64,000 nt of DNA from Zygnema cylindricum. Its lineage: Eukaryota; Streptophyta; Zygnematophyceae; Zygnematales; Zygnemataceae. Shown in pieces: positions 386 through 60,235 of this stretch (positions are counted from its first letter, which is position 1; every line of letters starts with the position of its first letter). The stretch lies in assembly GCA_037447655.1 (NCBI GenBank), contig JBBHKE010002019.1, forward strand, positions 90,428 through 154,427, read 5' to 3'. The position numbers and the translations under genes were made by a program. The notes under the pieces are model-generated. The model did not search any database. It was given only the letters and a program-made list of their open reading frames with translations, and was not told the origin of the DNA.

Positions 386-889
386 TAGTGTTTACGCTGT
401 TGAGGCTTTGAAATATCTTCTTCTGTGAAGAGATCTTTCTTCTCAAAATTTTCACGGGCAATTTTCCTGATTCTCAATTTTTCCTCTCCTTAAATTTACA
501 CGCTTAGCGAAAGAACAGGCCCACCGCTTTCCTACGGCTGTCACAGTCATTGACCTTTTGCAGGTCTATTCTTTCGAGTCGTCGATAGCAAAAAACAGCC
601 TTTACTTTCGCTGAAAACTTGATGGGGTCGAGGCGTAAACTGTACAGTACTTACAATGCGAACCTATAACAAACAAAAAACATATGTCGTCAATTTTGAC
701 CAAACACTTGATTTTCCGGACATTCTAGGCACAAAATCTGAACTATAAATCAGGTTACAAAGTCAAACATTTGGTACACTCATATCGTGATTTTCAAAGT
801 ACGGTACACTGTAGTGTACCGTACTGAGTAGTTTTTCAGCCTCGGCGAGTTAGAAAGCAGAATGTTAGTACGGAAACAAAAGTATTCAT

Positions 890-1030
890 ATCATACTGAT
901 AATATTGCGATATCGATATATCCCGTTTATCGGCGATATCAATTATCTGCTTGATGTATCGATTATCAAGACCTTTCAAAAAAGTACACATCGATTACCG
1001 GAAAATCCTGCTCGATGTACTACACTACTA
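890..1030. repeat. Degenerate CGATAT-rich MITE relative
   Basis: The stretch is dense in GATATCGATATATC, TATCGGCGATATC and GTATCGATTATC palindromic words, as in the hAT-like MITEs at 18013, 20089 and 31165. It ends near CTCGATGTACTACACTA, a decayed form of that family's terminus. No left terminus or target-site duplication could be defined. Confidence 0.35.
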
Positions 1031-4801: not shown

Positions 4802-4847
<46 letters not shown>

Positions 4848-6628: not shown

Positions 6629-7027
6629 TGGCTCTGAAATTTGCCAACTGCTTGAGGAAAATGTTTGTCGGTTTGGCCCCAAACGATAATGACAAGGTTT
6701 CTTGATTCTGCAAGAAAACTAGTTGAAAAAATTACCTTTTTGCTAGGATTGCAAACAGTAGAGCATTTTCAGCTATAACCTTGAGATGGAATGGAAAGAA
6801 AAGAAATGAAAAGATTCTGAACCATCAAATCCTCTTCGTTATGCGTTGAGGTGTAACTTTTTTTATCATCCCAGCCAATGTCAGGAAAAGTTGCTAATCT
6901 GCAGATATTAAAGGCCATTTGTGAAGGAAATTAACACCTTTCGAGACAAATGCTCAAGCTTAGAAATAAGCTGTTAGTATGCACTGTACAATAAATGCAA
7001 GTTGTTACCATCGATAATTGATTAATG

Positions 7028-7171
7028 GGGTAATTACATATAAGTGATTACTGTCGTTACTCACCAGTAATCACAGTTATCGTACAAAAAAGTGTAAAGA
7101 ATGTACATTTTTCTGTATGATTACTGAATTTCTGGCTCGTAACGCCAGTAATCGCATATCTGTAATTACCC
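7028..7171. repeat. Small TIR element (MITE), GGGTAATTACA ends
   Basis: The left end GGGTAATTACATATAAGTG is the inverted match of the right end CGCATATCTGTAATTACCC, followed inward on both sides by the GATTACTG/CAGTAATC pair. The element is about 144 bp. Target duplication is unclear (flanks TAAT and TATAA). Confidence 0.7.
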
Positions 7172-26945: not shown

Positions 26946-27057
26946 CCATATCGTACCGTAAACCCTAAGAACCTAAATTAATAAGTCGGGTTCTGGCGTT
27001 TTGCCTAATTGAACTTTAGCTTAACTTTTTAATCCATTGTTTCTGTGACCAAAGTCA

Positions 27058-27868
27058 GGGTATTTTCGCATGTGCTAAAGTTACAGCTATTTTCTGTCGT
27101 TTTCCTCCATAACTTAGAAAAAAACGAAAAAATCCGCAGCCGTACCAAAAAATAGAAATTACCACCGTACAATTTGCGTTACCCTGAAACTTTATACGTA
27201 CAGTAGTTTGTCGTCTAGCGCGATATAATTTGTCGTTTAGCGCATTTCGACCCACTTTCGCGTCCTTTCAACACATGTTCAAAATTTACATCAAATCACC
27301 TCGCGAGGTGATTTGAAATAAAGTCCAATAAGGTGAGCGAATAGGCAAACACTATCGCATGTGTCTGAAGTTTTTTACAATTTTTGTGCGCGGATTACCA
27401 AAAAAAAAACACACTGCACGTTTACAGCCTGTGCGTAATGTTTTTCGTGCGCTGATTTCCGTACAGGGGCCGTCTCTCTCAAAAACACGTCTTCACACAT
27501 ACGGCGTAGGAAAAACATTGGGCACCTGTCGGCTAGTGGGAAGACGAAAAACGAAACCGCATTTTTGTGCGACAGCGAAAGGTATTTTAAGGTTTCGACA
27601 CGTCGACAATGTGGCGTACGGACATTACGAAGTCACAAAAATTGTACAGCGTGCGGAAAGACGCCTCAAATTGAAGCCGAGTGGAAGTTTCGCCTCATTT
27701 TGTTGTACCACTTCATCTGTCACATTGTTTCGTACACGTCTACGTAAGTCACTTTTTTAAGAAACAAGTTATTTGCGTTTACATCCGAATGCTCTGAAAG
27801 TTGTACGGAAAATCTTCGCTAAAAAACAAAGTAGCAAGACTAAGTTTCGGTTACATGCGAAAGTACCC
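27058..27868. mobile_element. PIF/Harbinger-like non-autonomous element, copy 1
   Basis: The 811-bp element has ends GGGTATTTTCGCATGTGC and CATGCGAAAGTACCC and is flanked by TCA on both sides (27055-27057, 27869-27871). The 3-bp duplication and GGG termini fit PIF/Harbinger. A perfect 26-bp palindrome centred on TCGCGA lies at 27291-27316. The 133-codon frame at 27359-27760 shows no transposase motif. Confidence 0.75.
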
Positions 27869-27984
27869 TCAGTAGTTCAAAAATTACAAGTCAGCTTACC
27901 GTTTAAATTCAATATGTGCTAAGCCAGTAAAAAGCTTCTAAATTTGGACTATTTGTAAACAAAATGACGTGAAGTTCAAATCAA

Positions 27985-29750: not shown

Positions 29751-29854
29751 ACGTTCACACAACCCGAGGCAACTCTACTCAACTCTATGCCACCCTACAA
29801 AACCCCCTATCTAACCTTACGCACTCTATGCAACCTTACGCTAACTCCGAGTAA

Positions 29855-30666
29855 GGGTATTTTTGCATGTGCTAAAGGTATAGTTATTTTTTTGTCGTTT
29901 TCCTCCATAACTTAGAAAAAATCGAGAAAATATGCATATGTACCAAAAAATAGAAATTACCACGTTACAAGTTGCGTTACCCTGAAACTTTATATGTATA
30001 GTAGTTTGTCGTCTAGCGCGATATAATTTGTCGTTTAGCGCATTTCGACCCACTTTCGCGTCCTTTCAACACATGTTCAAAATTTACATCAAATCACCTC
30101 GCGAGGTGATTTGAAATAAAGTCCAATAAGGTGATCGAATTGGCAGACACTATCGCATGTGTCTGAAGTTTTTTACAATTTTTGTGCGCGGATTACCAAA
30201 AAAAAAACACACTGCACGTTTACAGCCTGTGCGTAATGTTTTTCGTGCGCTGATTTCCGTACAGGGGCCGTCTCTCTCAAAAACACGTCTTCACACATAC
30301 GGCGTAGGAAAAACATTGGGCACCTGTCGGCTAGTGGGAAGACGAAAAACGAAACCGCATTTTTGTGCGACAGCGAAAGGTATTTTAAGGTTTCGACACG
30401 TCGACAATGTGGCGTACGGACATTACGAAGTCACAAAAATTGTACAGCGTGCGGAAAGACGCCTCAAATTGAAGCCGAGTGGAAGTTTCGCCTCATTTTG
30501 TTGTACCACTTCATCTGTCACATTGTTTCGTACACGTCTACGTAAGTCACTTTTTTAAGAAACAAGTTATTTGCGTTTACATCCGAATGCTCTGAAAGTT
30601 GTACGGAAAATCTTCGCTAAAAAACAAAGTAGCAAGACTAAGTTTCGGTTACATGCGAAAGTACCC
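29855..30666. mobile_element. PIF/Harbinger-like element, copy 2 (mismatched flanks)
   Basis: Same family as copy 1 and almost identical from about 27359 onward (offset 2798), but the left ~200 bp are diverged. The left flank is TAA and the right flank TCA. The ~110 bp to its right (to about 30779) also match the right flank of copy 1, so its right half arose by duplication or conversion. Confidence 0.75.
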
Positions 30667-30873
30667 TCAGTAGTTCAAAAATTACAAGTCAGCTTACCGT
30701 TTAAATTCAATATGTGCTAAGCCAGTAAAAAGCTTCTAAATTTGGACTATTTGTAAACAAAATGACGTGAAGTTCAAATCTCTTGATTACACGTCAGTTC
30801 AATGTTCAGAACGTAAAATAATCGTTATTGAATCGGCTTCAAGTTCAACAAGGTGGATGTTACAAACTTACAA

Positions 30874-40626: not shown

Positions 40627-41079
40627 GTGGGGGGCGGTGAGAAGCTGTGTGAGGAGCCATGGAAAGTCTACAGGGGGAATCTAGAGGACGAATATGTGGT
40701 TGTCCATGTTTTAGGACCGGACCACAATGTGGGTGACATGGCGCGAAAGATGCTGAGTGTCGGCCATCGCCACGTGGCGAAGGTCATAGGCTGGTGTCGC
40801 GACAGTAGAAGCATTGTGGTGGAGGGGGGAAAAGACATAAAGAGCCTACTGACATATAAACAACTGCCATGGCACAAATGTTGTCGAATAGTGTGGGCGG
40901 TGACATCTGCTGCTGCGTATTTGGCCACCGAAAGAATAGACTCTAGCCTTGTATTTTTTTATGACGAAAAAATCTTCAAGCTTGTCTACATCCCTGGTGG
41001 ATCCGCAAATCACACCGACAGTACAGTTCGTAGTTTTGGAAGCTTTCTGAAAGAAGTGGTGAAGGGACCTTTACACTAG
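40627..41079 (+). pseudogene. Intronless receptor-like-kinase domain fragment, probable pseudokinase
   Basis: A 150-codon frame aligns with the N-lobe and early C-lobe of plant receptor-like kinases: WKVYRGNLEDEYVVVHVL (strands 2-3), SVGHRHVAKVIGWCRD (the HxN-LxG-C region), IVVEGG, LPWHKCCRIVWAVTSAAAYL (W-R-I-A-L-YL). The glycine-rich loop start is missing and the strand-3 Lys is replaced (VVVHVL). The catalytic HRD loop and everything after it are lost. It ends at the breakpoint of the truncated Copia element. The first codon used is not a strong start. Probably a captured or retrocopied fragment, not a gene. Confidence 0.55.
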
Positions 41080-44000
41080 TTTTTCTTTTCCTTTTTCCAC
41101 ATACATCTCTGGTTGCTGCATATAAATGGTTTCTTCTAGCTCTCCATGAAGGAAAGTTGTTTTTACATCCATCTGATGTACTTCCATACTTTCAATTGTT
41201 GCTAAACATAAAAGAATCCTGACAGTAGGAAATCTTACAACTGGAGAGAAAGTCTCCTCAAAGTCGATTCTTTCTTTTTGATTGTAACCTTTGGCCGCCA
41301 ATTTGGCCTTGTATCTTTCAATGGTGCCATCCGGGTTCAACTTTAGTTGAAATACCCATTTGCTGCCGATGGCTTTACGATCCGGAGGGAGATCAACCAG
41401 CTCCCATGTTTGAGCTTTAATGATAGACTTTATTTCGTCGTTTGCCGCCTCTATCCTGTGATTTCTTTCAGGTGAAGAGAAGGCTTCCCAGATAGTCTGA
41501 GGTTCTCGCGGGTTAGCAGAATAAGCAAAGTGGGAACTTCATTGATGGCAATTGCTAGATCTCCTTCCCCCCGGAAATTTTGAGGTGGGGACCGTTGGAA
41601 GTCTCGCATTCTTAGTTGTTCTGGTCACTCGGTCTGTTTCATCCTGGATTTGTTCAGTTTGCTCCATCTGAGTTGTAAGACGAACTTGAGGATCAGAAGA
41701 AAGTTGTTCCGCAATCTGGTGCTGAACAACTCGAAAATATAGAGTCTTCTGCGTGTCAAATATAACATATTCTTTTGATTTTTCTGCTCCCTGATTTTCT
41801 ATCATTCTAAAAAGATATGCAGATTCATTTTTATCTTTCAGAATTATATTTCTAGAAACTACTATCTTTTTCTTATCTAAAACATATACTCTATACCCCT
41901 TGGAATTTTCATCATACCCTACTAGAATAACTGGCAAACCTTTCGGTTCTAATTTCCAAGTATTCGGTGAAGTGTCCAAAATAAAACATTTACTTCCGAA
42001 AACTCTAAGATGACTAACATCTGGTTTTCTACTTGTCCATATCTCAAAAGGTGTAGTGCTAACTGATCGAGAACCTATTCTGTTGTTAATGTATACTGCA
42101 CAATTGAGGGCCTCAGCCCAGAATTTCATATCAACATTTTTGTCAGCTAACATAGATCTAGCACTCTCTCCAATAGTCCTATTCAATCTTTCTGAGACAC
42201 CATTTTGTTGTGGTGTGTAAGGAACCGTGAGCTGGCGACTGATACCCTCATTTAGAAGAAATTGGTCAAACTCTTTTGATATGTACTCTCCTCCATTGTC
42301 CGATCTGAGCTTCAAAATCGGAGCATTATGCAATTTTTCCGCCCAAGTCTTGTAGTGTTTGAAGTGGCCGAACACTTCACTCTTTTCTTTCATGAAATAC
42401 ACCTTCGTAAACTTGGAGAAATCATTTGTAAATGTCACCATAAACTTGACCCCCCTAGCAGAGGGCACCTAAGTCGGTCCCAAAACATCAAAATGTATGA
42501 GCTGCAAAACCTTTGTAGACCGATGTTCTGATACTTGTGGGAAAGGTAACTTGTGAATCTTTCCTAGTGAGCAACCATCACATGTTTTAACTGGCTGATT
42601 AGTAAGAGAAACACCTTCTATTTTACCAGAATTAACCATCTTCTTCAAGCTATCATAGTGAACATGACCTAGTCTTTTATGCCACAATTCATTTTCAGAA
42701 ATAACACTTGAATACAGAACATCATTTTCCATTGTATTAGCCATATCTATACGATACATTTTGCTCTCATCTCTAGTTCCTGTGACTGCCACCTTTCCCA
42801 GCTTGCTCACAACCTGCCTACCGCCCTTAAGGGTGACCTCAAATCCTTTGCTTTCAACTAGAGAAGTAGAAAATAGATACTTTTTGAAATCCGGTACATA
42901 TAAGACATTGTGAAGAGCTCTTTCAATTGACTTCCCACCTATGTCTACTTGCAAAGACACATCACCCTGAGTAGAAGTCTGAAGACTCATGCCACACGCA
43001 TAGTAGATGTTCCTTGCAGGTGTGGACTTGAGATTAGAAAAGAGTCCTTTGTTCCAACACATGTGAGCCGATGCCCCAGTATCCATGATCCAACCGGCGT
43101 CCTTTGAGCCCTCCATTGCTGCCGCCATTGCGAATAGCTTTGAATCATCCTTGTTATTGAAAGTGATAGACTCATCCTCTTGAATTACAGATGAAGAAAA
43201 CAAAGAGTTGTTTTGCAACTGATTACCGCAAAAGCTCTGATTAAACTGACTTTGTTGCCATCCTGGCCTATATGAACCTGTTTCATTAGCTGTTTTGAGC
43301 TTAGGAAAGTACCTATTCCCATGACCCTTCTCTGAACATCAAAAACAAGTAGTGAAAGATCTATTATTCTGCCCTTGATTAAACTATTTAAACTGACCCT
43401 GGTTCTGGTGAAATTGATTTCTTTGCTGACTAAACTGATTTCTCTATGGATTAAACTGTCCTTTTCTGTCATAGTTCGTGTTAAAAGCCTCTACTTGCTT
43501 TCACCATTAAGCATCTTAGATGTAGACTCTTCCTCTAAGATAATATTGATAGCTAGTTGAAGTGTCCAGCTAGACTTATCATGCTTTTTCAATTCAACAG
43601 ATGCATCTTTCATACTGCTTAGAACACCTCTGATAATCAGAGCTGCTTGCTGAAACTCAGGAAAACTCCCACCAGCACAAGCATGAGAGTCGATGAGAGC
43701 TCGAAAGTTATCTGTATACTCGGCCATTGTTCCCCCCAAGTATTTGAAGTCCTAAAATTTTCCTGCCAACAAAAGTTATTCTTGCACATTTGCTTTTTCA
43801 TAAGATGACTTCAGCGATTTCCAGATGTTAATCGCTTTCTTCATTTTCATTCTCGACATAACCATACTCTCCGAGAGACACAATTTAAGAGCGTTTTGAG
43901 CCTGCGAATTCTTTTTCGCCCAGGTTGGATCAGCTTCATCAAGTGATCCATCCAAAATGTCCAATAAGCTTGCAGTTTCAAAATAAGACTCAACCATATC

Positions 44001-45949: not shown

Positions 45950-47929
45950 CTTCGAGCTGACATTATTTTCGCCACTTACCACATATTCTTTCTGCTGACA
46001 CTTGTCAGGTTGCTAATCCGAAGGTTACGATTGATTGATAAGAATCTCACCTTCTGACCTGTCGACAAATAGACAAGCGTGCACAGGAAAAAAATGTTTT
46101 TAAAGTGACAAAAAAATAATTTTAACAGTAAGCAATCCACGCGTATTATACTGATTCTTGGGGACACAAAGCTTGACTTGATGGCATAGTTGTTCACGAC
46201 GATTAGTGCAAACGTACCAATCGCAACGAATTAAACGTAACGAACACATTGAACCTTTTGAACAAATCGTAAAAAATCGTTAATGAAATTTCATCCGTAC
46301 AATTCCGTTCAATTAACACAAAAAAAATATTACATATAGCGCATTTTGTAAGATTTCCATTAAATGAGCGCTAAAATATTACAAATATTTGAATAAAATT
46401 GACAATCCATGCAAGTACTAAAACACCTTCGTCAACGGCTAGCGAAGTATGTGGAAGTAGACTACGTAGTGGTATTAGACATTGGGGGGAGGTCCTATTT
46501 GGCGGGCGGCGGAGACCTTCAAGGAGGATTTTGCCCGGGCAATGTAAATCCTTCCTAGTTATTGATAAGGACAGAAAATTATCGCGCGAAGCGCGGAGAA
46601 TTCTTTTTTAACAGTCTCCTCGCGGATTAGGTCAGATAGACATGAAAAAAAAAAGTGTTCATTTTCAAAGAGTTCTCATATAGAGCATTCGCCACAAATA
46701 ACGTCATGCGCGTCGTATGAGAACATGTAAATCGCGTACGCGACTCAAAATATCTCCATATTATAATTTGCGTTCACACTTTAAGCACTACCATTTAATC
46801 CGTCGAACAATTGAGTCGCGCGTCACGTGAGAACAGTTAATCCTTTACCATTAAAAACTAAAACAAAAATTTTGCCGCGCGTTACGTGAGAACACTTCAC
46901 GTGTGACATTAAAAATAACAAAAAAAAAATACAGTCATATTGTCGACGTTTGGCGCCGCGGGCGAAATTTTTTTTAGTACGCTACAGGAAATGCGGATCA
47001 TACGCCGAGGGTATAAAAATATCTTACGGTCATTATTGGAGTAGTATTTTGAAAAGAGGAGAAGGTATTTTGAGAGCGGAGAAGTATATTTAAATTTCTA
47101 AAGTACAAAACAAATCCGCGTGTACGATATACATACTCCAAAATGTGACGTTGTTTATCGATTTTCGTACGGTCGAAAGTGAAATTACGTACTTTTCAAT
47201 GTAGATTAACTCTCCTCGCGGATGTCCGTACGTGGTAATGTTGAATTCCGTACTCTTCAATGTAGATTACCTCTCCGCGCGAATTACGTACGTTCCGTAC
47301 TCTGATGTACATTAACCCTCCGTACGAATTTCGTACGCTCAAATGTGAACTAACTTTTTTTCAGTATGTATCCCAAATGATTACGTTTCAAATTGTATTG
47401 AAAATGCACGATTCACACTAGAAACGGATGGTGAATGAGATGACAAAATGAATGCTCTCGTACCATTCATTTCGAAAAAAAACAAAAAACAGAGGCGCCA
47501 AACAGCTCGACCGCTCGGCTGTCAACCTTTTTGGAGCGTAGCGACGGGCAAAATTTACTTTTTGGAGCGTAGCTACGGACAAAACATACGGTCAAGTGCG
47601 TCAAAATTGGACAACTGTGGTAAGTCATATTCTTTTCCACAAACCCTTTTCGGAATGCAGAATTCCGAGTTAGAAGAAAAATGAAGTCCTATCCCGAATG
47701 AATGATCCGTACTGTAACAATTTTTTTTGGAATGATGACCCTTTATCAAAGAACCAATCAAAATCATCTAAAACTACCTTTTATCAAAGAACCAATCAAA
47801 ATCATCTAAAACTATACGTAAAAAAATTTCAACAATTTTTTTTTTAAACGTTGACGAAACAACCTCCCCCTTTCTTACCTCTTGCAGGTGAAACAAACTT
47901 TGCGCGCTCATCTCCCATCCCACACATCT

Positions 47930-47930
<1 letters not shown>
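45950..47930. other. Gene-free repeat region
   Basis: No gene recognised. Contents: a decayed MITE near 45990-46140; repeated CGCGCGTYACGTGAGAAC words at 46690-46930; a three-unit minisatellite of about 60-70 bp around 47180-47340 (CGTACTCTTCAATGTAGATT, CTCTCCGCGCGAATTACGTACG); and a ~35-bp segment at 47409-47443 repeated in inverse at 54166-54205. A 45-bp direct repeat (CCTTTATCAAAGAACCAATC) is near 47740-47812. Confidence 0.6.

Positions 47931-47991
<61 letters not shown>
47931..47991. repeat. Poly-C run of about 60 bases
   Basis: Uninterrupted C except at the edges, directly before the telomere-like start of the Crypton A fragment. The run yields a spurious polyproline frame. Likely an expansion or assembly artefact. 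Confidence 0.9.
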
Positions 47992-47994
<3 letters not shown>

Positions 47995-48717
47995 CCCTAA
48001 ATCCTGCAGCTTAACCTTAAATCCTACAGTTTTGTATTTCTATTTTTGTATTTATTTTCTTGTTTTTATTTCATCTTTTTTCATTCCTTTACTTGTTTCC
48101 TTTCAACTCTTTTGTTTTAAATTAAACTTTTTAAAGGTTTTTCTTATTGTTTTCGTTTTATTATGTTTATTTCTTTTTCTTCTTCATAAAATTTTTCTTT
48201 TCAATGGTTTCTTGGCGTAAAGGAATTTTCCAAATTTTACCTAGTATTGTATCAGGGCTTACATTTGGAAACTGTCAAAAAATTGTTCATTTAGAAGATG
48301 ACGATAACAATGTAGGAATAAAATACCCCCACAATATACTAAATCAAATAGAGCACGAATCATCAAAGATACATTAAAAAAGCGTAATCCAAACATAGAA
48401 TCAGCTTATCGAGTTGGTTTAAATCGTTATGCAAATTTTTGGGAGGCACAAGGGCACCCAAATGTAACCATTACACCTGATGGGGTTATTGGACTATTAG
48501 AGAACAACAAAGATAAAAGTTATGCAACACTAATACAATGGGTGAAAAGACTCCAAGACTCATATAAAACGCAATTAGCCATAAAATGAGGGGGTGGTGA
48601 AAGCATTAGATACAACAATATTATCCAAAAACTTTTACAATAATCTCAACAAAATACATCATTTAAAAAAAAAAAATAACCATGAAGACCGCTAGGAAGG
48701 CATACGAGAAGCGTATT
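47992..48717 (+). mobile_element. Crypton fragment A, 5' part (interrupted by LTR element)
   Basis: Closely matches 54400-55110: short CTAACCCTAAATCCTGCAG repeats, a T-rich leader, an ATG frame (start SWRKGIFQILP), an intron-like segment, then RNPNIESAYRVGLNRYANF, WEAQGHPNVTITPDGVIG and LIQWVKRLQDSYKTQLAIK. It stops where the TGTTAAATTT LTR begins and resumes at 52851. A TAG here (48690) corresponds to CAG in copy B. Confidence 0.85.
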
Positions 48718-49786
48718 TGTTAAATTTGTGTATTTTCTAGGTCTGAATTTATTCTATGTGTTTGTCAGATGGTCTTGTCTAAGTCATCCATACTTGTCGT
48801 AGTCACTGGAAGACAGAGATAGCCATGGCTGCCCCCATAGTCAAAAAGAAGAAACAGGCAAAAACAGGCAGAAAAACTGATAGGTGGCTAATGTGCTGCT
48901 CTAAACTGGATTTGAACCTGGGTCTGTGGTTTCCTATGTAGACGTAATCCTTATCCAATAAGGCGTTACTGAAACAAAACACGTGACGGGTTTCAAAGAT
49001 ATATAAACATTAACGCAACAGCTACTTAACAGCAGACTAACCAAAAAGAGCAATTCATGCATGTACGCGAATCTGAACCATGTAAAATATGTTTTGATCG
49101 GACGGCCGGCATTATAGCCGCAACGCGAAGTGAGATTTTGGCGGCATACGGAGATAGCGTCACGCGGTGCCACGTGGCGCCACATTATTTGATACCGGAG
49201 AAGATGGGAGGAGGAACCATGGCTTCCGATTTGACAGGTGTCACCTTGTAGACCTTGTCGTACAATGGACGTACAATAAGTACATCGCCCATTGTACCTT
49301 CTTGTACTTTATATTGTTCCTATTAGACTAGGGTTTAGTAGTAGGTAGTCGTGAGTAGGCAGACCAAGACTTAGTGATATTTAGGTACCTCTCTCTAAGA
49401 GAGCTTGTAACTATAAAGGTCATCTTTCACCAGCCATAACTTAATGCTCGGGTGAGCAAATTCAGTGATTCTTTTTGCTGCAGACTCAGGGGAGTCTAAG
49501 CTACACAGGGGTGTTGTCGGTCAGAGTATTTGCTTGCCAAGGTGGCACTTATTTAGTGGGAAAGTCAAAGTGGGGAGTATTGTCCAAAACACATATTCAA
49601 GCTTTGCATTATGTGGTGGAACTGAGCACACAAAAGGTCTTCTCTTCACGGGGGTGAAGGTGTATTGGGGTTTTTATTGTCAAGGGATCATTCATTTGGG
49701 TTTATATCAACTTGGAGTCGGCACTATCTAGATTAGCTTCTTTTGGATCTGCGAATTCTGTGGGCAATGGAGCCCATAGAATTTCA
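48718..49786 (+). repeat. 5' LTR of the TR-GAG element
   Basis: 1069 bp, starting TGTTAAATTTGTGTATTTTC and ending CCCATAGAATTTCA. It includes the inverted tRNA-like module (about 48908-48970; on the minus strand CAGACCCAGGTTCAAATCC) and, at its end, the gag ATG (49769). Confidence 0.9.
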
Positions 49787-51166
49787 AGTTATGGGCCCAC
49801 CATCTAGGGTGTCTATGTTCGATGGAATAGACTTCACTTATTGGGAGTTTATTATGGAGGGATTGCTTTTTGAGAAGCACTTATGGGGAATTATTTTTGG
49901 ACAAGTGAGATGTCCGCCACCTGGCTTTGGAGGAGGTTACTATGGAGAATCATCTGAGGCTGCTCAGAATATCAACCGGAGTTCAGATGAATCAAAAGGT
50001 GAAGGGAAAAACCTTTCCGTGGATAGGGAAATAGTGGAGAAGGATAAAGGGACACTTATGGTGAGGGGAGCTATGCTCTCCGCCACATCTTCACTTAGAG
50101 GGGTTATAAGTAAAACTGAAGTAAATGATAGTAAAATTTGGGAGTATAAAAACACTATAGCAAAACATCTTATACTTAGATATGTGTCTAAGTCCATAGC
50201 TATCACTCTTTTAAGTCTTACCAAGTCTTCGGAAATATGGGAAACACTAAGGCAGATTTATAAGAGTGAGACTATTCAGAGGCAGCATTAGTAAAACAAG
50301 AAATAGAGGCCTATGTTTATAAAGGCGGTAACATGATAGAGTTTTGCAATGATATTGCTGCGTTATATGTTGAGCTTGCTAGTGCGGGGTATGTAGAATC
50401 TGAGGAGAGAAAGATCAATACACTACTCATGAAACTCCCAGATGAGTACGAAAACATCATTAATCGTATGCAGGCAATGGATGGCTCCTAATGGACTTGG
50501 AGCTTTACCATGGGGATAATTCTTGTGAGGGAAAGCACTTTGGAGCTTCTTAGGGGAAGTGAGAGGGTAACTACCTTTACAGCTGGTGGTGATTGGCGGA
50601 AGCGTGATAAGAGGAACGGCGGTGACGAGCGGAAGCGTGATGAGAGGAAGAAAGACAAAGGTAAACCTTATCGGAACTTTGGTGGAAAGAGAGGGAGAGC
50701 AAAAGAAAGGGGAGCTTTGAAAAAGGGTGTTTGCTTCTTTTGTAGAGAACCGGGTCACTATATAGAGGAGTGTCCTTGCTTGGAAGAACTTAGAAGTTGG
50801 AATGTAAAAGAGGAGGAAGAAGGGGAAGAGGAGAAAGAGGATGAAGAAATATTGGAGCTTCTTCACATCGGTAGAATGGAGAAGAGAGAGAAGTACACAA
50901 AAATTACACGAAAGCAACGATGTGCTTTTGGAGGTATAAGGGAAGTAAAGGGAAGGGAGGTACTTGAGGGAGTTAGAAATGATGAAGATGTCAAGGAGTG
51001 TAAAAAGTATAACTTAGAAATGAGAAAGTCAAATCTAGAATCTATAATTGAAAAAGGGAAAAGTAAAAATAATGAGGATAATTTTATAGATATTTTGGAA
51101 ACACAAAACTGGTTGCAACGGGAGACTTCAACGGATTCCGAGGAAAGGGGAGAAGTAAATCCATAG
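49769..51166 (+). pseudogene. Gag polyprotein of the TR-GAG element, with disruptions
   Basis: The likely start is the Met of MEPIEFQVMGPPSRVSMFDG, inside the 5' LTR, by comparison with the related gag at 28897. Reads FTYWEFIMEGLLFEKHLWG, CPPPGFGGGYYG, EYKNTIAKHLILRYVSKSI, EIWETLRQIYKSE, then after a one-base shift near 50283 LVKQEIEAYVYKGGNMIEF and KINTLLMKLPDEYENIINRM. After a TAA near 50489 comes a basic region and a CCHC zinc knuckle (CFFCREPGHYIEEC, about 50731-50772). A very Glu-rich tail follows to a TAG at 51164. Copia-like (UBN2) gag. Confidence 0.85.
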
Positions 51167-51202
51167 GGGGTTTTAAAAGATAGGGGAGAAGAGGAATATT
51201 TA

Positions 51203-51742
51203 ATGAAAGGTTTAGGGGAGGAGAAATATTTATTGGGAATAAAAATAGAAAGTGATAGCGGAAAGAATTCCTTGGGAGAGAGTGAGGAAAGTTCAAAAAA
51301 TGGGATGAGTATCAAGGATAAAAATATGAGTACGGAAGACGTAGATCTTATGAGGAACTTAGCGGGGATACTTGTTTTTTCGAAAAATTTGGGGGGTAAT
51401 GGACTTGACATCACTAATGGGAGTGATGCCATCTATGAAGGTGCGCCTGTAAAAGGGTTAGCATCGGGGTGTGTGTTGCAGATTGAGGATGTGGCTGGCT
51501 GTTTGAATTGCAAGAGGGAAATGGGATTTTGTGTGGATGGAAAAGTGATGAGGTGGATAAAATCTTTGCTCGGATTTATAAAAAGTGAGATGCCAAATAA
51601 AATGTGTGATCAGCAAGATGGAATGTTAATTTCAGCTCATCTATTAGACCTTTTAAAATATGAGGGTATATTCTTAAAGTTTAATTATAGGAAAAGAAAG
51701 AATTTAAAAAAAGGGGATTTTGTTGTTGTTATTTTTATTTAG
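51203..51742 (+). CDS. Uncharacterised ORF downstream of gag in the TR-GAG element
   Basis: A 179-codon open frame between gag and the 3' LTR. The text is protein-like: LMRNLAGILVFSKNL, DAIYEGAPVKGLASGCVLQI, CLNCKREMGFCVDGKVMRW, LISAHLLDLLKYEGIFLKFN. I recognise no domain; a CLNC plus FC pair of cysteines is visible. It may be an accessory protein, a degraded pol remnant, or captured host sequence. Confidence 0.5.
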   Translation: MKGLGEEKYLLGIKIESDSGKNSLGESEESSKNGMSIKDKNMSTEDVDLMRNLAGILVFSKNLGGNGLDITNGSDAIYEGAPVKGLASGCVLQIEDVAGCLNCKREMGFCVDGKVMRWIKSLLGFIKSEMPNKMCDQQDGMLISAHLLDLLKYEGIFLKFNYRKRKNLKKGDFVVVIFI

Positions 51743-51781
51743 TGGGAGTTGGCGCAATAGAAGACTAAAAATTAAGGGGAG

Positions 51782-52850
51782 TGTTAAATTTGTGTATTTT
51801 CTAGGTCTGAATTTATTCTATATGTTTGTCAGATGGTCTTGTCTATGTCATCCATACTTGTCGTAGTCACTGGAAGACAGAGATAGCCATGGCTGCCCCC
51901 ATAGTCAAAAAGAAGAAACAGGCAAAAACAGGCAGGAAAACTGATAGGTGGCTAATATGCTGCTCTAAACCGGATTTGAACCTGGGTCTGTGGTTTGCTA
52001 TGTAGACGTAAGCCTTATCCAATAAGGCGTTACTGAAACAAAACACGTGACGGGTTTCAAAGATATATAAACATTAACGCAACAGCTACTTAACAGCAGA
52101 CTAACCAAAAGGAGCAATTCATGCATGTACGCGAATCTGAACCATGTAAAATATGTTTTGATCGGACGGCCGGCATTATAGCCGCCACGCGAAGTGAGAT
52201 TTTGGCGGCATACGGAGATAGCGTCACGCGGTGCCACGTGGCGCCACATTATTTGATACCGGAGAAGATGGGAGGAGGAACCATGGCTTCCGATTTGACA
52301 GGTGTCACCTTGTAGACCTTGTCGTACAATGGACGTACAATAAGTACATCGCCCATTGTACCTTCTTGTACTTTATAGTGTTCCTATTGGACTAGGGTTT
52401 AGTAGTAGGTAGTCGTGAGTAGGCAGACCAAGACTTAGTGATATTTAGGTACCTCTCTCTAAAAGAGCTTGTAACTATAAAGGTAATATTTGACCAGCCA
52501 TAACTTAATGCTCGGGTGAGCAAATTCAGTGATTCTTTTTGCTGCGCACTCAGGGGAGTCTAAGCTACACAGGGGTGTAGTCAGTCAGAGTATTTGCTTG
52601 CCAAGGTGGCACTTATTTAGTGGGAAAGTCAAAGTGGGGAGTATTGTCCAAAACACATATTCAAGCTTTGCATTATGTGGTGGAACTGAGCACACAAAAG
52701 GTCTTCTCTTCACTGGGGTGAAGGTGTATTGGGGTTTTGATTGTCAAGGGATCATTCATTTGGGTTTATATCAACTTGGAGTCGGCACTATCTAGATTAG
52801 CTTCTTTTGGATCTGCGAATTCTGTGGGCAATGGAGCCCATAGAATTTCA
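51782..52850 (+). repeat. 3' LTR of the TR-GAG element
   Basis: 1069 bp, same ends as the 5' LTR, with about 20 differences by eye, and the tRNA-like module at about 51972-52035. Confidence 0.9.
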
Positions 52851-53068
52851 ATATTCTCTCAAAGATTACAAAGGTTTTTCAACATTTTGGTTGGAGTTGG
52901 CCGAAAGAAAGCACAAAGAAAAAAAATTGGGGATGGAACCGTACACCAACATTCAAGTGAGGTATGTATCGATAAAAATACGAAATCTTGTATTCCATGT
53001 TTTTGATTTATGTTGTTTTTTACTTTACAATTTATTTTATTGGGTGTGTTTCTTTTAAAATGGGGAAA
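52851..53068 (+). mobile_element. Crypton fragment A, continuation and 3' truncation
   Basis: Resumes the Crypton at the TR-GAG insertion point (SLKDYKGFSTFWLELAERK, MEPYTNIQVR, donor GAG then GTATGT). It follows copy B to about 53068, then diverges at GTGTTAGGTTATTGGG, which could be another LTR start. Confidence 0.8.
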
Positions 53069-54300
53069 AAAGTGTTAGGTTATTGGGTGAATCGGCGGAT
53101 CGGCTGGATTCACGATTTTGTTTAATTTGTGTTCAGTTTGCGTCGGCAGTTTTTTGTCACGTTTATGTTTCGTTTGAGTGTTACGTACGGATAGAATTAC
53201 GTTGTGTTGTTTCGTACGTCGGTTCATTTAGTACGCAGGACCTTCGTACATTATGTTTGGTCCAGCGCACGGTTGAAGTTCCGCGTCATTTCTATTTTGG
53301 CGCTCAAGGTTCTAGTGAGTGTGTGAGTGAGTGTCCGTGAAGTTAGTAAGTTAGTGACGTGAGGAGAAAGTAGAGAAGTCGTGTAGAGTAAGTCTCCCCG
53401 TATATTCTTATTTAAGGAGAAGTCTGAGTTAGGAATTATTATGCGTCTTGTAGTGGTAGATGCATCATGCGTCTGAAATAGTGATGCATAAAAGGAGGGA
53501 ATGAGAAGGGAGTTAGGGAGGGAGGGATAGTGGGAGGGAGGGAGGGATAAAAGGAGGGAGGGTGGGCAGATTGTGAGAGAGGGAGGGAGGGAAGGAGGGA
53601 GAGGGAGGGTGAGAGAGGAGGGATGTTGAGAGAGGAAAGGAGAGAGAGAGAGGGAAGGAGTAAGGGATGGAGGGAGGGCAGATTGCCAAGGTGGGAGGGC
53701 AGATTGAGAAGGTGGGAGGGCAGTTTAGGAAGGTGGGAGGGCAGTTTAGGAGGGAGAGAAAGTGAATGAATGGGGGAAAAAATGTTGAAGAATTGATAGT
53801 TTAATGTTTAGTGTTAAAAGAGGGCGAAAAATCAAAAAGAGGAGAAAGAAAAAAGAAAGAAAAAAGTTTGGTTCAAGCAGGATTTTACAGGTTGTTTTTG
53901 TTTGTTTTTTCGCCACCTTTTTTTTTCGGGTGATGTTTGTTTGTTGGTTGTTTTTTTGAACCATCCCTTTTTGTTTGGATGTCTCGGCCGGTCACCGTGT
54001 AAAAAATATATGTTACTGTGCGTATGAAAAACGATGGTTTGGTACGAATGTATTTGAGTCATTCGACGCTTAATCGTACGGCATCATTAATCACATCGCG
54101 ACGTTTTTGTTGACGTCAGATGACGTCAAAGGCAATTCACGTCCAAAAAAAAAAAAGACATTCGTTTCTTCATCTCATTCACCATCCGTTTCTAGTGTGA
54201 ATCGTGCATTTGAAACGTAAGTAAATATGGACTTACGTTAATTCATTTGTCACGTACGTTTTAACTAAAGGTTTTGAATTATGTTTTAACGTATCTAGTG
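53069..54300. other. Gene-free stretch between the two Cryptons
   Basis: Begins TGTTAGGTTATTGGGTG, possibly a solo-LTR fragment, unproven. A GGGAGGGAGG tract lies at about 53480-53760, T-rich text and TGACGTCAGATGACGTCA near 54112. No gene recognised. Confidence 0.5.
53480..53760. repeat. GGGAGGGA-rich tract
   Basis: Purine-rich repeat with a GGTGGGAGGGCAGATTGAGAA subrepeat (about four units) near 53685-53750. Confidence 0.9.
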
Positions 54301-54309
54301 TTAAAACCT

Positions 54310-54425
54310 ACAGCTAAATTTTACGGCTTATTCTTAAATCCTACAGCCTAACCCTAAATCCTACAGCCTAACCCTAAATCATGCAGTCTAACCCTAAATC
54401 CTGCAGCCTAACCTTAAATCCTACA
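54310..54425 (+). repeat. Telomere-like minisatellite, about 20-bp unit
   Basis: Five to six units of CCTAACCCTAAATCCTACAG and variants, containing the plant-type CCCTAAA telomere word, directly precede the Crypton B leader. A shorter array begins Crypton A at 47992. Confidence 0.88.
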
Positions 54426-54600
54426 GTTTTGTATTTCTATTTTTGTATTTATTTTTTTGTTTTTATTTCATCTTTTTTTATTCCTTTACTTGTTTTCTTT
54501 CAACTCTTTTATTTTAAATTAAACTTTTTAAAGGTTTTTCTTATTGTTTTCGTTTTATTATGTTTATTTCTTTTTCTACTTCATAAATTTTTTCTTTTCA

Positions 54601-57600
54601 ATGTTTTCTTGGCGTAAAGGAATTTTCCAAATTTTACCTGGTATTGTATCAAGGCTTACATTTGGAAACTGTCAAAAAATTGTTTATTTAGAAGATGACG
54701 ATAACAATGTAGCAATAAAATACCCCCACAATATACTGAATCAGATAGAGCACAGATCATCAAAGATACATTAAAAAGCGTAATCCAGACACAGAATCAG
54801 CTTATCGAGTTGGTTTAAATCGGTATGCAAATTTTTGGGAGGCACAAGGGCACCCCAATGTAGCTATTACGCCTGATGTGGTTATTGGACTATTAGAGAA
54901 CAACAAAGATAAAAGTTATACCACACTAATACAATGGGTGAAAGGACTCCAAGACTCATATAAAACACAATTAGCCATAAAAGGAGGGGGTGGTGAAAGC
55001 CTTAGAGACAACAATATTATCCAAAAACTTTTACAATAATCTCAACAAAATACATCAATTTTTTAAAAAAATAACCATGAAGACCACCAGGAAGGCATAC
55101 GAGAAGCCTATTCTTTCAAAGATTACAAAGGTTTTTCAACATTTTGGTTGGAGTAAGCCGAAAGAAAGCACAAAGAAAAAAAATTGGGGATGGAACCGTA
55201 CACCAGCATTCAAGTGAGGTATGTATCGATAAAAATACGAAATCTTGTATTCCATGTTTTTGATTTATGTTGTTTTTTACTTTACAATTTATTTTATTGG
55301 GTGTGTTTATTTTAAAATGGGGACAAAAGTTATGTGCAATTTTTATTTTTTTGAGAAGAGTAATACATTATTTTAAAAGGTTCCATTATATTTGTAACAT
55401 TGTCATTTTTTCTGTTTGTGTTATTTTGTTTATTTTTTTGTGATGCAATTTTTGGTTTTTGGGAATAAATATGCATTTTTGTCGAAGGAAGCTTTCACTA
55501 TTTTTGTAACATTATCGTTTTTTGTCTCTTTGATGTTTTGTTTTTGTTTTTTGTAGGGTGTCTCAGTCGTGGCGATGATTCCAAAAATGCTGAGTTAGCG
55601 GATGTTTTTTCGTATGATCTTCCTTATTATGGGCCGAACTAGGGTTATGTTTTGGCGATGGTTACAAGAAATGGGTAAACTAATATAGTAAGTAATCTTT
55701 AAAAACCGGAGCTTTAACGAAATTGTGTATTTTTCTAATATTTCGTACATAACCCTTAACAAATTTTACTAATTTTTTAGGGTTTTTTTTATGGTATTTT
55801 TTATCCGCAGAATGGTCGTGCATAATTTATCGGATGCATGCGCCACTTGGACTTTCTATTTGTCCGATAGGTGTTATGGCCCAACAGTTTTTTTTGGAGG
55901 TGGGAATCAGCTACAAATAAAAACGGAGTTCCCAAATTTACGACGAAACAAACTTGGTATGGGGAACCCTTCACGAAAGGGAGAGTTTTAGCGAAAGATG
56001 AAGAAAGAAAATAAACACCGTTCATGCAGCCTCTCTGTTATAATACACAGTTTCAATACATAAAAAAAACATTCAAAACCAAAAATATTTCCTTATCACA
56101 TAAAACCCATGCTGGACGTGGTCAAGGAGCGACAATGTTGGCAACAAGAGGGTGCGTTTTTGTAAACTTATCATTTGATTTTTATCATGCATTTATTTTA
56201 AATAACCAAGTTTTGTTATGTATGTTCTAATTTTCCAAATTTGATTTTTCTTTATGGTAAATATTTCAGTGCTGATCGAGAAGCCATCAAAGTGATGGGA
56301 CGTTGGACGTCTGACCATTTTTCGTATTCGTATGTCACGGATTTGCCGACGAACATTCTACTTGAAGCTTCTGGCCACGAAAAAAACACCAGAAAATATT
56401 TTCTACCTCGTTCCAAAGTGAAACCCCCTACTACTCTTTGTGCCATGTTTTGGCCGTGGGTCGAAACGGCATATGCTAAGCTGCCAACGGTATGTTTAAA
56501 ACAACTCTCAGACTTTTTTTTGTTTTTTTTTCCATAACTTCATTTTTTTTGTCTTTTCAATTGTTTTTTTCTATATTTTCAATTGGTTTTTCTATGGTTT
56601 CAATTGTTTTTCTTGTTTTTAAGTTATTTTTCATATATATTTTTGGATAATTTGTTTTTCCCTACTTGTTTTTTTTTTTTCCTTTTTTTTTTCCTCTCTC
56701 TGTCGTATTCTTTTTTTGTTTTATATCTAATGAATTATTCTTCTATTAAAAACATACAAACGTTTTTTTGTGCAGAAAAATGCTCGAGCTCCAAAATCTG
56801 AACGGGATTTTAGCGCCCATAATTTTCTTCAAACTATGTTATGGCTAAAAACTGTGTTTTTACAAGATCATGTTTTTTTCCAAGATTTCTTTCTTGATCT
56901 TCCCATCTTCAAACACAAATTGTTCCAATCTCATTTATGGTCGTCGTTTAAAGACGAAGTCAAAAAAACCTGTTTTGAAGCATCACACATGTGGGCTTCA
57001 ATTGCAGATGTCGAAGCGAATGTGCCGATCACTATCTCACAGGTGGGAAAATCTGTTGATTCGTTATTTATGTGGAGTCAAACTTGTGGAAGAAAAATTG
57101 ATTTTATTGCCAAAGAAATCTGTTATGTAAAAGAGACAGTTTCGAGTTTGGAAGACAAAATGTGTTTTATAGATGAGAACTTCAGTGAGAAAATGTGTAA
57201 TATAGAAGAAAAATCAACCCATATTATGTAGATGATGAACGGTCACGGAGAGACGCTCTATGAAAGAGAACCCTTTCAAAATCACAGTAGACCAAATCAA
57301 AACAGACCATCAATCAAAACAGACCATCAAAAGGTGAATCGTCCATGGGAATCGGGACTCCTGAACATAATCGTCTTCAAACTGAAGGCAACCGAAATGA
57401 AACCCATGTAAACACGACAAGAACAATTGAAGAATTTGCACCTCCTCTTCCATCAAAAGAAAACTCAAATCAAGTTTTTTTGATGACACAAATTGGGGCT
57501 CGACTACATATGGTAAAAGATGTGTGGGAAACATATCATGATGGTATAGGTGGACTCCCTTCCATCGCGAAATTGGAAAAAAGTGGATCTAGTTGGAGGA

Positions 57601-57780
57601 AAAGAGAATCTCATAAGTTTTATAATTGGAACGTCATCTTGGTAGAAGTTAAAAGAATAACATAAGTGAATAAAGTATCATTGGGTACGGCATTAGACAC
57701 ATTGCACGATCGTCAATTCGCGAACAAATGGAGTCTGCGCGACATATCGAGAAGATTAGCGACCGAAAACAAAAAATAGT
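54601..57780 (+). pseudogene. Crypton tyrosine-recombinase transposon (YR + Ndc10-like + GCR1_C), decayed
   Basis: Tyrosine-recombinase DNA transposon of the Crypton class. Exon model: 54601-54640, 54756-55218, 55557-55687, 55811-56151, 56270-56489, 56776-57231, then a region to 57780 in a shifted frame. N-terminal helical part: AYRVGLNRYANFWEAQG, LIQWVKGLQDSYK. Catalytic part: LSRGDDSKNAELADVFSYDL (box I Arg), GxTN (Lys lost to a stop), FIGCMRHLD, SHKTHAGRGQGATML (H-x-x-R), KVMGRWTSDHFSYSYVTDLP (Trp and nucleophile Tyr candidates). Then an Ndc10-like part (YFLPRSKVKPPTTLCAMFW, LWLKTVFLQDHVFF). Last, VKDVWETYHDGIGGLPSIA with SWRKRESHKFYNWN matches GCR1_C. In-frame stops: TAA 55037, 55064, 55154, 55676, 55823, 56012, 57663; TAG 55640, 55868, 57229. 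The exon 2/3 junction phase does not fit, so a small exon or frameshift is missing. Confidence 0.88.
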
Positions 57781-58169
57781 TAAATTGAAGTTTGCGGGAC
57801 TTTTTGGGCATCTATTATAAATGTGTTTTTTTTAGCTTTTGAAACTTTGTAGAAACATATAATTTTATTTAAGCTGATTTTTTTAGAAATTCAAACTCGC
57901 GTAATGCGTTTGATTGTAGTTTTATTATTTTAGGCCCTTTGTATGTTTATATTTTATTTGTTTTTTTTATTTAATTTAGTACGAACCCTAAAATTGCATA
58001 ACTTTTTTTTTATTTGATAAAAAAATACATGTAACCTTTAATGTTGTCGAAGCTAATGTTTTTTGTATTCTATTTCACAAAATTTACATTTTAATTAGTA
58101 TTCACAATATTTGCTGTCCAATGTGTTTTTATTATCAAGTAGGATATCGCGTACAAACACTACTTCTAT

Positions 58170-59165
58170 ATGTATATGATTTTATTTTCATTATTTTTAT
58201 CGACAATTACGTTAGGTTAAAAAGTTTTGGTTAATGTTTTTTTGTTTATATAACAAACTATAACTTAAAACAAAACAAATATAGTTTATCTATCACGGTC
58301 GATGAAAAATGTAGTCGTTGTGTTTATCAAACTTAATACGCTTGAAACATTGTAAGATAGAAAAACAATAAACATCGATCGCGGGGGTAAAATTTGTTAT
58401 ATTGTTCGTTTTGTGATACTACAAAACAAAATAGAAGCAACGACTAACCATTTGCATCCTTTATTTGGTTTTTTTTTGTTATACATGCGTTTTGTCAAAT
58501 ATTTAATCGGATATTTCATTATTTTTATCAACGATTATGTTAGATCAAAAAAATTTAGTTAATGTATTTGGTATATACAACAAACAATAACGTAACAAAA
58601 ACGAAATACAGTTTCTCTATTATGGTCGATAAAAAATGAAGTCTTTTTATTTTGTTTATGGTCGATAAAAAACGAAGTCGTTATATTTTGTCAAACTTAA
58701 TAGGTTTGAAACATTGTAAGATACAAAAATCATAATATCGATAGTGGGAGTAAAATTTCTACAGTTTTTCTTTTTGTGGTACTATGAGAGAAAATAAAAG
58801 CAACGGCTAAATATTATCATCGTTTATTTGGTTTTTGTTTTATAAATGCCTTTTGTCGAATACTTAATCCTGTATTTCATTATTTTATCAACAATTACGT
58901 TAGTTCAAAAAGGTTTAGTTAATGTTTTTGATTTATCTATAACAAACTATAACTTAACACAAACCAAATAGAATTTCTCTATGATGGTCGATTAAACATG
59001 TAGCCGTTGTGTTTATCAACCTCAATAGGCTTGAAACATTGTAAGATAGCAAAAACGATAGCATCGACCGTGGGAGTAAAATTTGTTCTATTTTTCGTTT
59101 AGTGATACTGTAAAACAAAATAGAAGCTCGACTAACTATTCTCATCGTTTATTTGGTTTTCTTTT
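58170..59165. repeat. Satellite of about 330-360 bp, three units
   Basis: Anchor GCTTGAAACATTGTAAGATAG occurs near 58333, 58700 and 59025. Units share TTTTTATCAACGATTATGTTAG, GTAAAATTTGTT and CTATGATGGTCGAT. The second unit has an extra ~40-bp internal duplication. Confidence 0.9.
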
Positions 59166-59170
59166 TGTTA

Positions 59171-59895
59171 TAAATGCCTTTTGTCCAAGATTCCAATGTA
59201 TTTTTTTTAGCATTTGTGTTATATTATATATAAATGTTGTATTATATTACGATTAATGCATAACAATATATTTAATTGAGCAACATTAAAAATATATTGG
59301 CGAAGGGGACCAAAACAATAATTAATTAAAACAGCCTTATGGCCGCTAACGACCAACCGACTAGCCGCCAGCTAATTGAGTGATTAACTACTCTATTTTA
59401 AGTAGCAACGTATCGAAGAGATCGACGACATAGGCGTAATGGTAACGTAGCGACAATGGGGAGCACGTTATTTTTTTATTTTTTATTTATTTTTTGGGAC
59501 GCCTTCGTGCGCTGGGTTTTTAGGGTTTTTTAGGGTTAAATGCCTTTTGTCCAAGATTCCAATGTATATTTTTTAGTATTTGTGTTATATTATATATAAA
59601 TGTTGTATTATATTACGATTAATGCATAATAATATATTTAATTGAGCAACATTAAAAGTATATTGGCGAAGGGGACCAAAACAATAATTAATTAAAACAG
59701 CCTTATGGCCGCTAAGGACCAACCGACCAGCCGACAGCTAATTGAGTGATTAACTACTCTATTTTAAGTAGCAGCGTATCGAAGAGATCGACGATATAGG
59801 CGTAATGGTAACGTAGCGGCAATTGGGAGCACATTTTTTTTTTTGGGACACCTTCGTGCGTTGGTTTTTATTGTTTTTTGTTTTAATCGCGCTTT
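59171..59895. repeat. Satellite of 366 bp, two units
   Basis: TAAATGCCTTTTGTCCAAGA begins units at 59171 and 59537. Both run through GGCGAAGGGGACCAAAACAA, GCCTTATGGCCGCTAA and GACGCCTTCGTGCG-like text with a few percent difference. Confidence 0.92.
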
Positions 59896-60235
59896 GACAT
59901 CGCCCGCCGCGAAAGCACCTATTAATCCGTTTGCGTCCTCCCGCGAGTCGTCGTACGCCGCCAGCTAAGACAGGTATACCTGGCCCGGTGACGTCTTCGC
60001 GGGCCAATTCGAAATATGTCGAACCGGCATCCGCGGGAGTCTCCGCGAGGTTATCCGACAGCCGACGTTATTCTCCTCGACCCTCCGCGAGTCTCCTCGT
60101 TTCGGCCTGTACCGGCCGTCTGCCGCCGTTTGCTCTCCGCGCGAAGCAGTCTACCGCTAGGTGGTTAACACGCCCGAGTTCAAACATCCGGAAGGGCACA
60201 TTTTTGTCAAATTCTGTGTGTCTGAGCCTATCTGA
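59895..60235. other. GC-rich island
   Basis: About 340 bases clearly richer in GC and CpG than the surroundings (CATCGCCCGCCGCG, CTTCGCGGGCC, CTCTCCGCGCGAAG). A 118-codon frame spans it but resembles no family. CTAGGTGGTTAACACGCCCG followed by GAGTTCAAAC is faintly tRNA-like. Confidence 0.45.

Follow-up and report, generated by a model that had tools for sequence, protein, structure and literature searches.

Evidence for a probably recently active CryptonF-type element family in a plant-lineage genome

A decayed CryptonF-type element near the end of a contig

The stretch of DNA analyzed here (the window) spans 64 kb, bases 90428-154427 of contig C1521, within an assembly of 352,776,454 bases in 2689 contigs, and its end is also the end of the contig. 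Besides host exons and other transposons, the window contains a full-length Crypton of the CryptonF type, which is interrupted by a nested insertion (Table 1). We are confident that this element represents a genuine CryptonF-type family in a plant-lineage genome, that the family has probably been active recently, and that the window copy is a nested, dead example of it. Below, copies are named by contig (C) or by fetched locus (L), so that C312 is L050, C647 is L052, C729 is L051 and C623 is L039; family 1 is the family of the window copy and includes C312 and C647.

A sequence-only reading had proposed that positions 54601-57780 encode a tyrosine recombinase (YR), an Ndc10-like region and a GCR1_C domain, and had suggested hidden Markov model (HMM) searches as a check. 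When the translated pieces from 54749-57776 were joined, with X at stop codons, Pfam returned NDC10_II (PF16787, E 5.6e-27) and GCR1_C (PF12550, E 1.5e-8), both over their cut-offs, and the YR motifs lay where they had been placed; Phage_integrase (0.0047) and Phage_int_SAM_1 (0.025) each stayed below their cut-offs. A six-frame search of the genome separately recovered the GCR1_C domain at contig positions 147931-148134, which are window positions 57504-57707 (E 1.9e-6, one internal stop). Because two separate searches agreed, we consider the motifs real and beyond chance. The proposed extent takes in the coding region but only the 3′ part of the element, since the whole Crypton begins with an exact 27-base match to the common 5′ terminus at 46466 and closes with ...CAGTCTACC at 60155. 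The flank ahead of its 5′ terminus closes with ACTAC. Over the 771 codons compared with the intact copy C312, the window copy has 10 stops, and its frame is also broken near 57.3 kb, in exon 5. It is a pseudogene, a dead relic that other transposons have invaded.

Table 1. The window Crypton, its parts and the insertions nested in it (exon edges were placed by eye and are approximate)
Feature	Positions	Strand	Basis
Full-length Crypton (CryptonF-type), interrupted by the nested insertion	46466-60155	+	blastn to L050 684-8659 and L052 1090-7978, blocks flanking the insertion
Crypton 5′ part, upstream of exon 1	46466-47400	+	92.4% to L050 684-1629
Nested inverted-repeat insertion, terminal repeats of 38 bases (TGCACGATTCACACTAGAAACGGATGGTGAATGAGATG), edges approximate to within a few bases	47401-54208	.	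blastn interruption and repeat reading
Carried Crypton fragment, part 1, exon 1 region ("copy A")	47990-48717	+	93.3% to L050 1850-2577; 94.4% to window 54388-55112
Copia-like long terminal repeat (LTR) element splitting the carried fragment, 1070-bp direct repeats 98% alike	48718-52851	+	self-comparison; Retrotran_gag_2
Carried Crypton fragment, part 2	52852-53073	+	97.3% to window 55109-55330
Remainder of Crypton: leader, five exons, 3′ tail	54209-60155	+	main blocks 88-96% to L050 1632-8659
Exon 1, N-terminal region, with stops	54601-55218	+	tblastn to spliced C312 protein, residues 1-207; Phage_int_SAM_1 below cut-off
Exon 2, YR box I (LSRGDD; catalytic Arg), start approximate	55556-55687	+	tblastn to C312 protein
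Exon 3, YR core including KTHAGR (H-x-x-R)	55811-56151	+	tblastn to C312 protein; Pfam on joined pieces
Exon 4, GRW...SYSYVTDLP: W-x8-Y, candidate nucleophile Tyr	56270-56489	+	tblastn; motif also in intact copies
Exon 5, end of NDC10_II region, linker, GCR1_C (57504-57707); stops	56776-57779	+	Pfam, six-frame search, tblastn
3′ terminal repeat, TCTACC in the window copy	60150-60155	+	TATACC in 8/8 other copies with 3′ end found

Intact copies retain the recombinase active site

C312 has five exons without a stop codon and a spliced protein of 773 amino acids, in which Pfam places NDC10_II at residues 194-497 (3.2e-41) and GCR1_C at residues 682-750 (1.1e-9). C647 is open in the same five segments, and its joined protein has 758 amino acids. 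Numbered as in C312, the active-site residues are R219, K255, H358-A-G-R361, W384 and Y393. R219 and K255 were invariant across the alignments that we made (K255 is presumably catalytic, as in YRs generally), and H-x-x-R and W-x8-Y were retained in seven of eight aligned rows, the exception being C623. The R-H-R-Y set (R219, H358, R361, Y393) is present in both C312 and C647, and the window copy keeps the motifs despite its stops.

The full elements measure 6.9 kb in C647 (L052 1097-8005) and 8.0 kb in C312, whose tail includes a simple-repeat stretch, and their non-coding 3′ tail, with internal repeats, ranges from about 2.1 kb (C647) to 3.3 kb (C312). In the window, the tail at 58180-59840 and 59893-60155 likewise contains internal repeats, diverged and some 320-350 bp long, and its last 250 bp were better conserved than the preceding stretch in two of three comparisons. 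Read by eye, without an HMM scan of every frame, the frames of at least 90 amino acids in the two full elements comprised a single main gene per element and no recognizable reverse transcriptase. The terminal 60 bases of C647, also read by eye, showed no terminal inverted repeats beyond the ATACC/GGTAT core pair. These features bear on whether the family could instead be a YR retrotransposon with a Crypton-like recombinase. DIRS, PAT and Ngaro elements share the tyrosine recombinase but carry a reverse transcriptase. The long tail without a recognized gene would suit such an element, and both DIRS-like and Toc/Kangaroo elements occur in Viridiplantae and algae (PMC4157794). Against this, no reverse transcriptase was noticed by eye in the frames read and NDC10_II and GCR1_C are present, so that we give a retrotransposon origin hardly any credence.

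Amino-acid changes were fewer than silent changes between the two intact copies, C312 and C647 (Ka/Ks 0.191, Ks 0.34, 756 codons), and C647 and C864 were nearly identical (Ks 0, Ka 0.0027, 312 codons). These values are Nei-Gojobori counts on tblastn codon pairs with stop codons skipped, and several of the tabulated copies contain stops. The substitution pattern fits a lineage that moves via intact copies and leaves dead ones behind.

Common termini and a filled and empty insertion site

Comparison of the copies by blastn and reading of the edges gave GTAGTGGTATTAGACATTGGGGGGAGG as the 5′ terminus and ...GCAGTATACC as the 3′ terminus, and these termini occur in different flanks. Among 10 loci scanned, the 5′ terminus was found in seven and the 3′ terminus in nine. 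The former was missing from L046 and L053, whose match to L052 begins inside the element, and from C729, which is diverged there; the latter was missing from L048. In C1393, too, the 5′ end is missing its first bases. The four bases preceding the 5′ terminus were TACC in C312, C647, C39 and C369, TATC in C725, AATT in C1386 and CTAC in the window, and the final six bases at the 3′ end were TATACC in every copy with that end except the window copy (8/9).

The C369 copy sits in a coding-looking repeated sequence whose joined flanks had 65 matches in the assembly, some overlapping and many spanning the insertion point. All three paralogues that we fetched (C2148, C1361 and C913) were uninterrupted there. 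The empty site in C2148 reads AACGTACCGCAAAG, and the filled site in C369 reads AACATACC[element...TAT]ACCGCGAAG. Integration thus took place at an (A/G)TACC-like site, where roughly one (A/G)TACC at the empty site gave rise to an ATACC at each end of the element. Because the letters of the 3′ end are constant across unrelated flanks, we favor a repeat produced by recombination over a random target duplication. The 5′ junction reads ATACC-GTAGT-GGTAT, in which the two arms of a 5-bp inverted repeat flank a spacer of 5 bp.

The low Ka/Ks between the intact copies, together with a relative (C623, below) that looks domesticated, could also be taken to mean that family 1 proteins are host genes kept for a host function. 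This is difficult to reconcile with many dispersed copies sharing common termini, with an insertion absent from paralogues, with dead copies standing beside intact ones, and with the catalytic tyrosine kept in the intact ones. We hold domestication of family 1 to be very improbable and continue to regard it as a transposon family.

The family is multiplied in the genome of a chloroplast-bearing host

Genome-wide profile searches, with a control set of 14 genomes, returned 50 GCR1_C matches, all over the cut-off, on 49 contigs, in agreement with the earlier suggestion that the element had multiplied. NDC10_II gave 60 matches, 56 of them over the cut-off. Neither domain had a match in any control genome. 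Both counts are lower bounds, and a single copy yields several NDC10_II matches because exons match separately.

The sequence-only reading had also named three flanking host genes, and one of these was clearly supported. Two exons of MGD in the window matched chloroplast MGD synthase 1 (PDB 4wyi) at 1.8e-26 and 2e-12, with MGDG_synth reaching only 0.11 in Pfam. For the CSP41b-like exon, Epimerase matches (0.0062 and 0.019) fell under the cut-off, a TerB oxidoreductase match stood at 0.001 and the PDB search did not settle the identity, so that the name is tentative. The ARP-like exon, also tentatively named, gave only an Exo_endo_phos match of 5.6e-4, likewise under its cut-off. Pfam searches with single host exons found no family for seven of 10 pieces, these seven being MGD- and CSP41b-like. 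The host thus bears a chloroplast, judging from the MGD synthase exons, and most likely belongs to the green lineage.

Contamination or a misjoin with fungal or oomycete DNA would offer another account of the Crypton, and we recognized no host gene by eye from 60155 to the end of the contig at 64000. However, copies with GCR1_C lie on 49 contigs, the longest of those with a length noted having 793,584 bases, the C369 copy is inserted in a repeated host sequence with uninterrupted paralogues, the window Crypton has itself been invaded by other transposons, and the MGD synthase exons share its contig. The sequence-only reading had named two conditions that would refute it. The first, a lack of HMM matches, did not hold, and the second, a misjoin, is made very unlikely by the distribution over contigs and the C369 insertion; we attach almost no weight to contamination.

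Relatives and origin

None of the 6159 candidates from a single-sequence protein search reached E 0.001. When an alignment was used to search 5.8 billion proteins, four relatives were found, and a wider alignment gave the same four: P0001, which is Klebsormidium nitens KFL_004740120, and the metagenome proteins P0002-P0004. None of them is a named CryptonF. The K. nitens protein, from a member of Streptophyta, is the closest named relative, with 33% identity over 63% of the query. Like family 1, it has an NDC10_II core and YR residues; its record is partial and, unlike family 1, shows no GCR1_C. P0002 and P0003 carry both NDC10_II and GCR1_C and P0004 carries NDC10_II alone; all three are 25-32% identical to family 1. 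Searches for a single short peptide pattern matched 10 stretches in viral contigs and 30 in GTDB genomes, none of them a relative, which for so short a pattern is weak evidence of absence. A PDB profile search matched the GCR1_C stretch to a hypothetical archaeal protein (1.5e-4), which we took as chance or a shared helix-turn-helix-like shape.

The genome holds at least three lineages (family 1, family 2 and C623), about 25-31% identical to one another. Family 2 (L042, L043 and L044, which are C1544, C2036 and C1369, and also L033 and L034) has about 27% identity with family 1. Within it, C1369 matches C1544 at 98% across 4 kb, and L040 and L041 (C531 and C673) resemble family 2 only across the GCR1_C end. 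The C623 gene (L039 ~613-8014; G000:C623:60500-70400, minus strand) has open exons with NDC10_II and GCR1_C-like regions and is 28-30% identical to family 1, with the catalytic Tyr replaced by R and the H of H-x-x-R by F. Having lost the catalytic His and Tyr, it may have been domesticated. An IQ-TREE tree of eight rows separated family 1, C623 and Klebsormidium from family 2 and P0002-P0004 with support of 95/94, and without C623 the corresponding split had support of 99/97. The tree is unrooted and has long branches, as the program warned, and some of its rows were joined by hand; a single streptophyte clade that includes family 2 is therefore also compatible with it.

Two histories could account for these relationships. 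A CryptonF from a fungus or oomycete might have entered the lineage recently by horizontal transfer and then burst. CryptonF elements were described from fungi and oomycetes, and transfer between those two groups has been argued (PMC3212892). The divergence from the known relatives runs the other way: family 1 is closer to the K. nitens protein than to P0002-P0004, the tree split, with the reservations given above, sets it apart from them, and several lineages coexist in one genome. P0002 and P0003, with both domains, and P0004 have a seemingly fungal look, which would favor transfer. Weighing these points, we consider a recent transfer unlikely. Alternatively, CryptonF elements may have resided in streptophytes since before the Klebsormidium split, as several families of which at least one copy (C623) turned into a host DNA-binding gene. 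We lean toward long residence over contamination or a recent fungal transfer because the closest named relative is a streptophyte protein, which is not proof, and we propose this history as a whole, with the domestication of C623, only tentatively, at rather less than even odds.

Discussion

Overall, we propose a putative mechanism for the transposition of this family. The single spliced protein would combine a tyrosine recombinase, an Ndc10-like core and a C-terminal GCR1_C domain that presumably binds DNA. The recombinase probably excises the element as a circle, and the joining of its ends would create the circle junction TATACC-GTAGT-GGTATT, whose short inverted repeat and 5-bp spacer resemble a YR-type core, within which the cut position is a prediction. 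The circle would then recombine with an (A)TACC-like target site, so that each end of the new insertion would carry (A)TACC but no terminal inverted repeat.

Several observations weigh against this model and against the assignment to CryptonF. TACC precedes the 5′ terminus in only four of seven copies, and two copies whose 5′ region was read, C729 and C1393, lack the exact terminus. C39 and C864 continue ATACCGTTTT past the 3′ end, repeating ATACC, of which the simple model gives no account. Of the three empty paralogues, C1361 (GTACA) and C913 (ACACC) each depart from (A/G)TACC at a single base. For the dead window copy, Ka/Ks is near 1 in one comparison (0.91 against C1386) but lower in two others (0.49 against C312 and 0.30 against C647). 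The PDB profile search, with one mixed row in its profile, reached CBF3 subunit A (Ndc10) only at 0.017 and 0.14, and an AlphaFold prediction for P0001, made with three relatives, reached a pLDDT of just 38.5 and was unusable. Finally, membership in CryptonF is based on domains and ends, since no named fungal or oomycete CryptonF entered the comparison.

The elements share with CryptonF a YR with the R-H-R-Y set, a C-terminal GCR1_C domain and the apparent lack of terminal inverted repeats (PMC3212892). Most fungal members have 6-bp terminal direct repeats, with which the TATACC/(A)TACC of the present element may be compared. In contrast to the CryptonF described there, the present family has a chloroplast-bearing, probably green host, five exons and a long non-coding 3′ tail, and we noticed no C48 peptidase of the kind found in some oomycete members. 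The presence of GCR1_C separates the family from CryptonS, CryptonA and CryptonI, whose YR comes without that domain. Yeast Ndc10/Cbf2 (CBF3 subunit A; PDB 6gsa, 4aco) likewise has an NDC10_II domain by Pfam; it is a host centromere protein without YR catalysis (PMC3212892), whereas the intact copies here keep the catalytic residues.

Cryptons are relatively rare (PMC11630846). A table passage of PMC3212892 covers fungi, animals and stramenopiles, with Chlamydomonas as the plant row of a tree legend; PMC7385966 gives Cryptons as not described in A. thaliana; and a plant transposon database labels 535 entries as Crypton (PMC8729191), the basis of the label lying outside the passage cited. Our literature search, which lay outside most subscription journals and Repbase and is no proof of absence, found no GCR1_C Crypton reported from green plants. 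What is new is therefore a GCR1_C Crypton in a host lineage with none described in the literature searched; the kind of element itself is known. The finding extends GCR1_C-bearing Cryptons from fungi and oomycetes to a lineage that is very probably green. Open copies, together with a filled and an empty site, make the long-inferred circle-and-recombine mechanism testable, as is the question of whether these elements are as old as streptophytes or crossed kingdoms. If C623 is indeed domesticated, it would be an independent case of the event behind the yeast centromere protein, and the plant side would then match what happened to Ndc10 and Gcr1 in yeast.

Nested insertions and other features of the window

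The interruption of the window Crypton is an inverted-repeat insertion, because TGCACGATTCACACTAGAAACGGATGGTGAATGAGATG opens and closes it in inverted orientation. Its flanks, ATTGAAAA and TTTGAAAC, may be an 8-bp target duplication with two differences. No transposase gene was noted in it, its frames having been read with no further search for one. It carries a fragment of Crypton exon 1, which adjoins a run of about 50 C and had earlier been counted as a second Crypton, "copy A"; by blastn, the fragment lies within the insertion inside the same window Crypton and is no separate copy. The fragment is split by a 4.1-kb LTR element, its two ends overlapping by 4 bp on the reference. This element matches Retrotran_gag_2 exactly at the cut-off (E 3.5e-6), with zinc knuckles below theirs. 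The nesting gives the order of insertion: the Crypton came first and the 6.8-kb inverted-repeat element second, and the arrival of the LTR element in the fragment may have preceded or followed that of the inverted-repeat element.

Scans of the window with Rfam (gathering thresholds) and for tRNAs gave no match. Within the MGD synthase gene, 895 bp are duplicated at 99.9% (18287-19181 and 20323-21217), so that the same exon occurs twice. The direct repeats at 27053-27982 and 29850-30780 are 97.6% alike, 2.8 kb apart from start to start and LTR-like, and a reversed piece resembling the LTR of the element at 48718-52851 sits within this pair. On the minus strand, 41074-43751 contains frames that, by eye only, resemble a copia-like polyprotein and adjoin the CSP41b-like exon.

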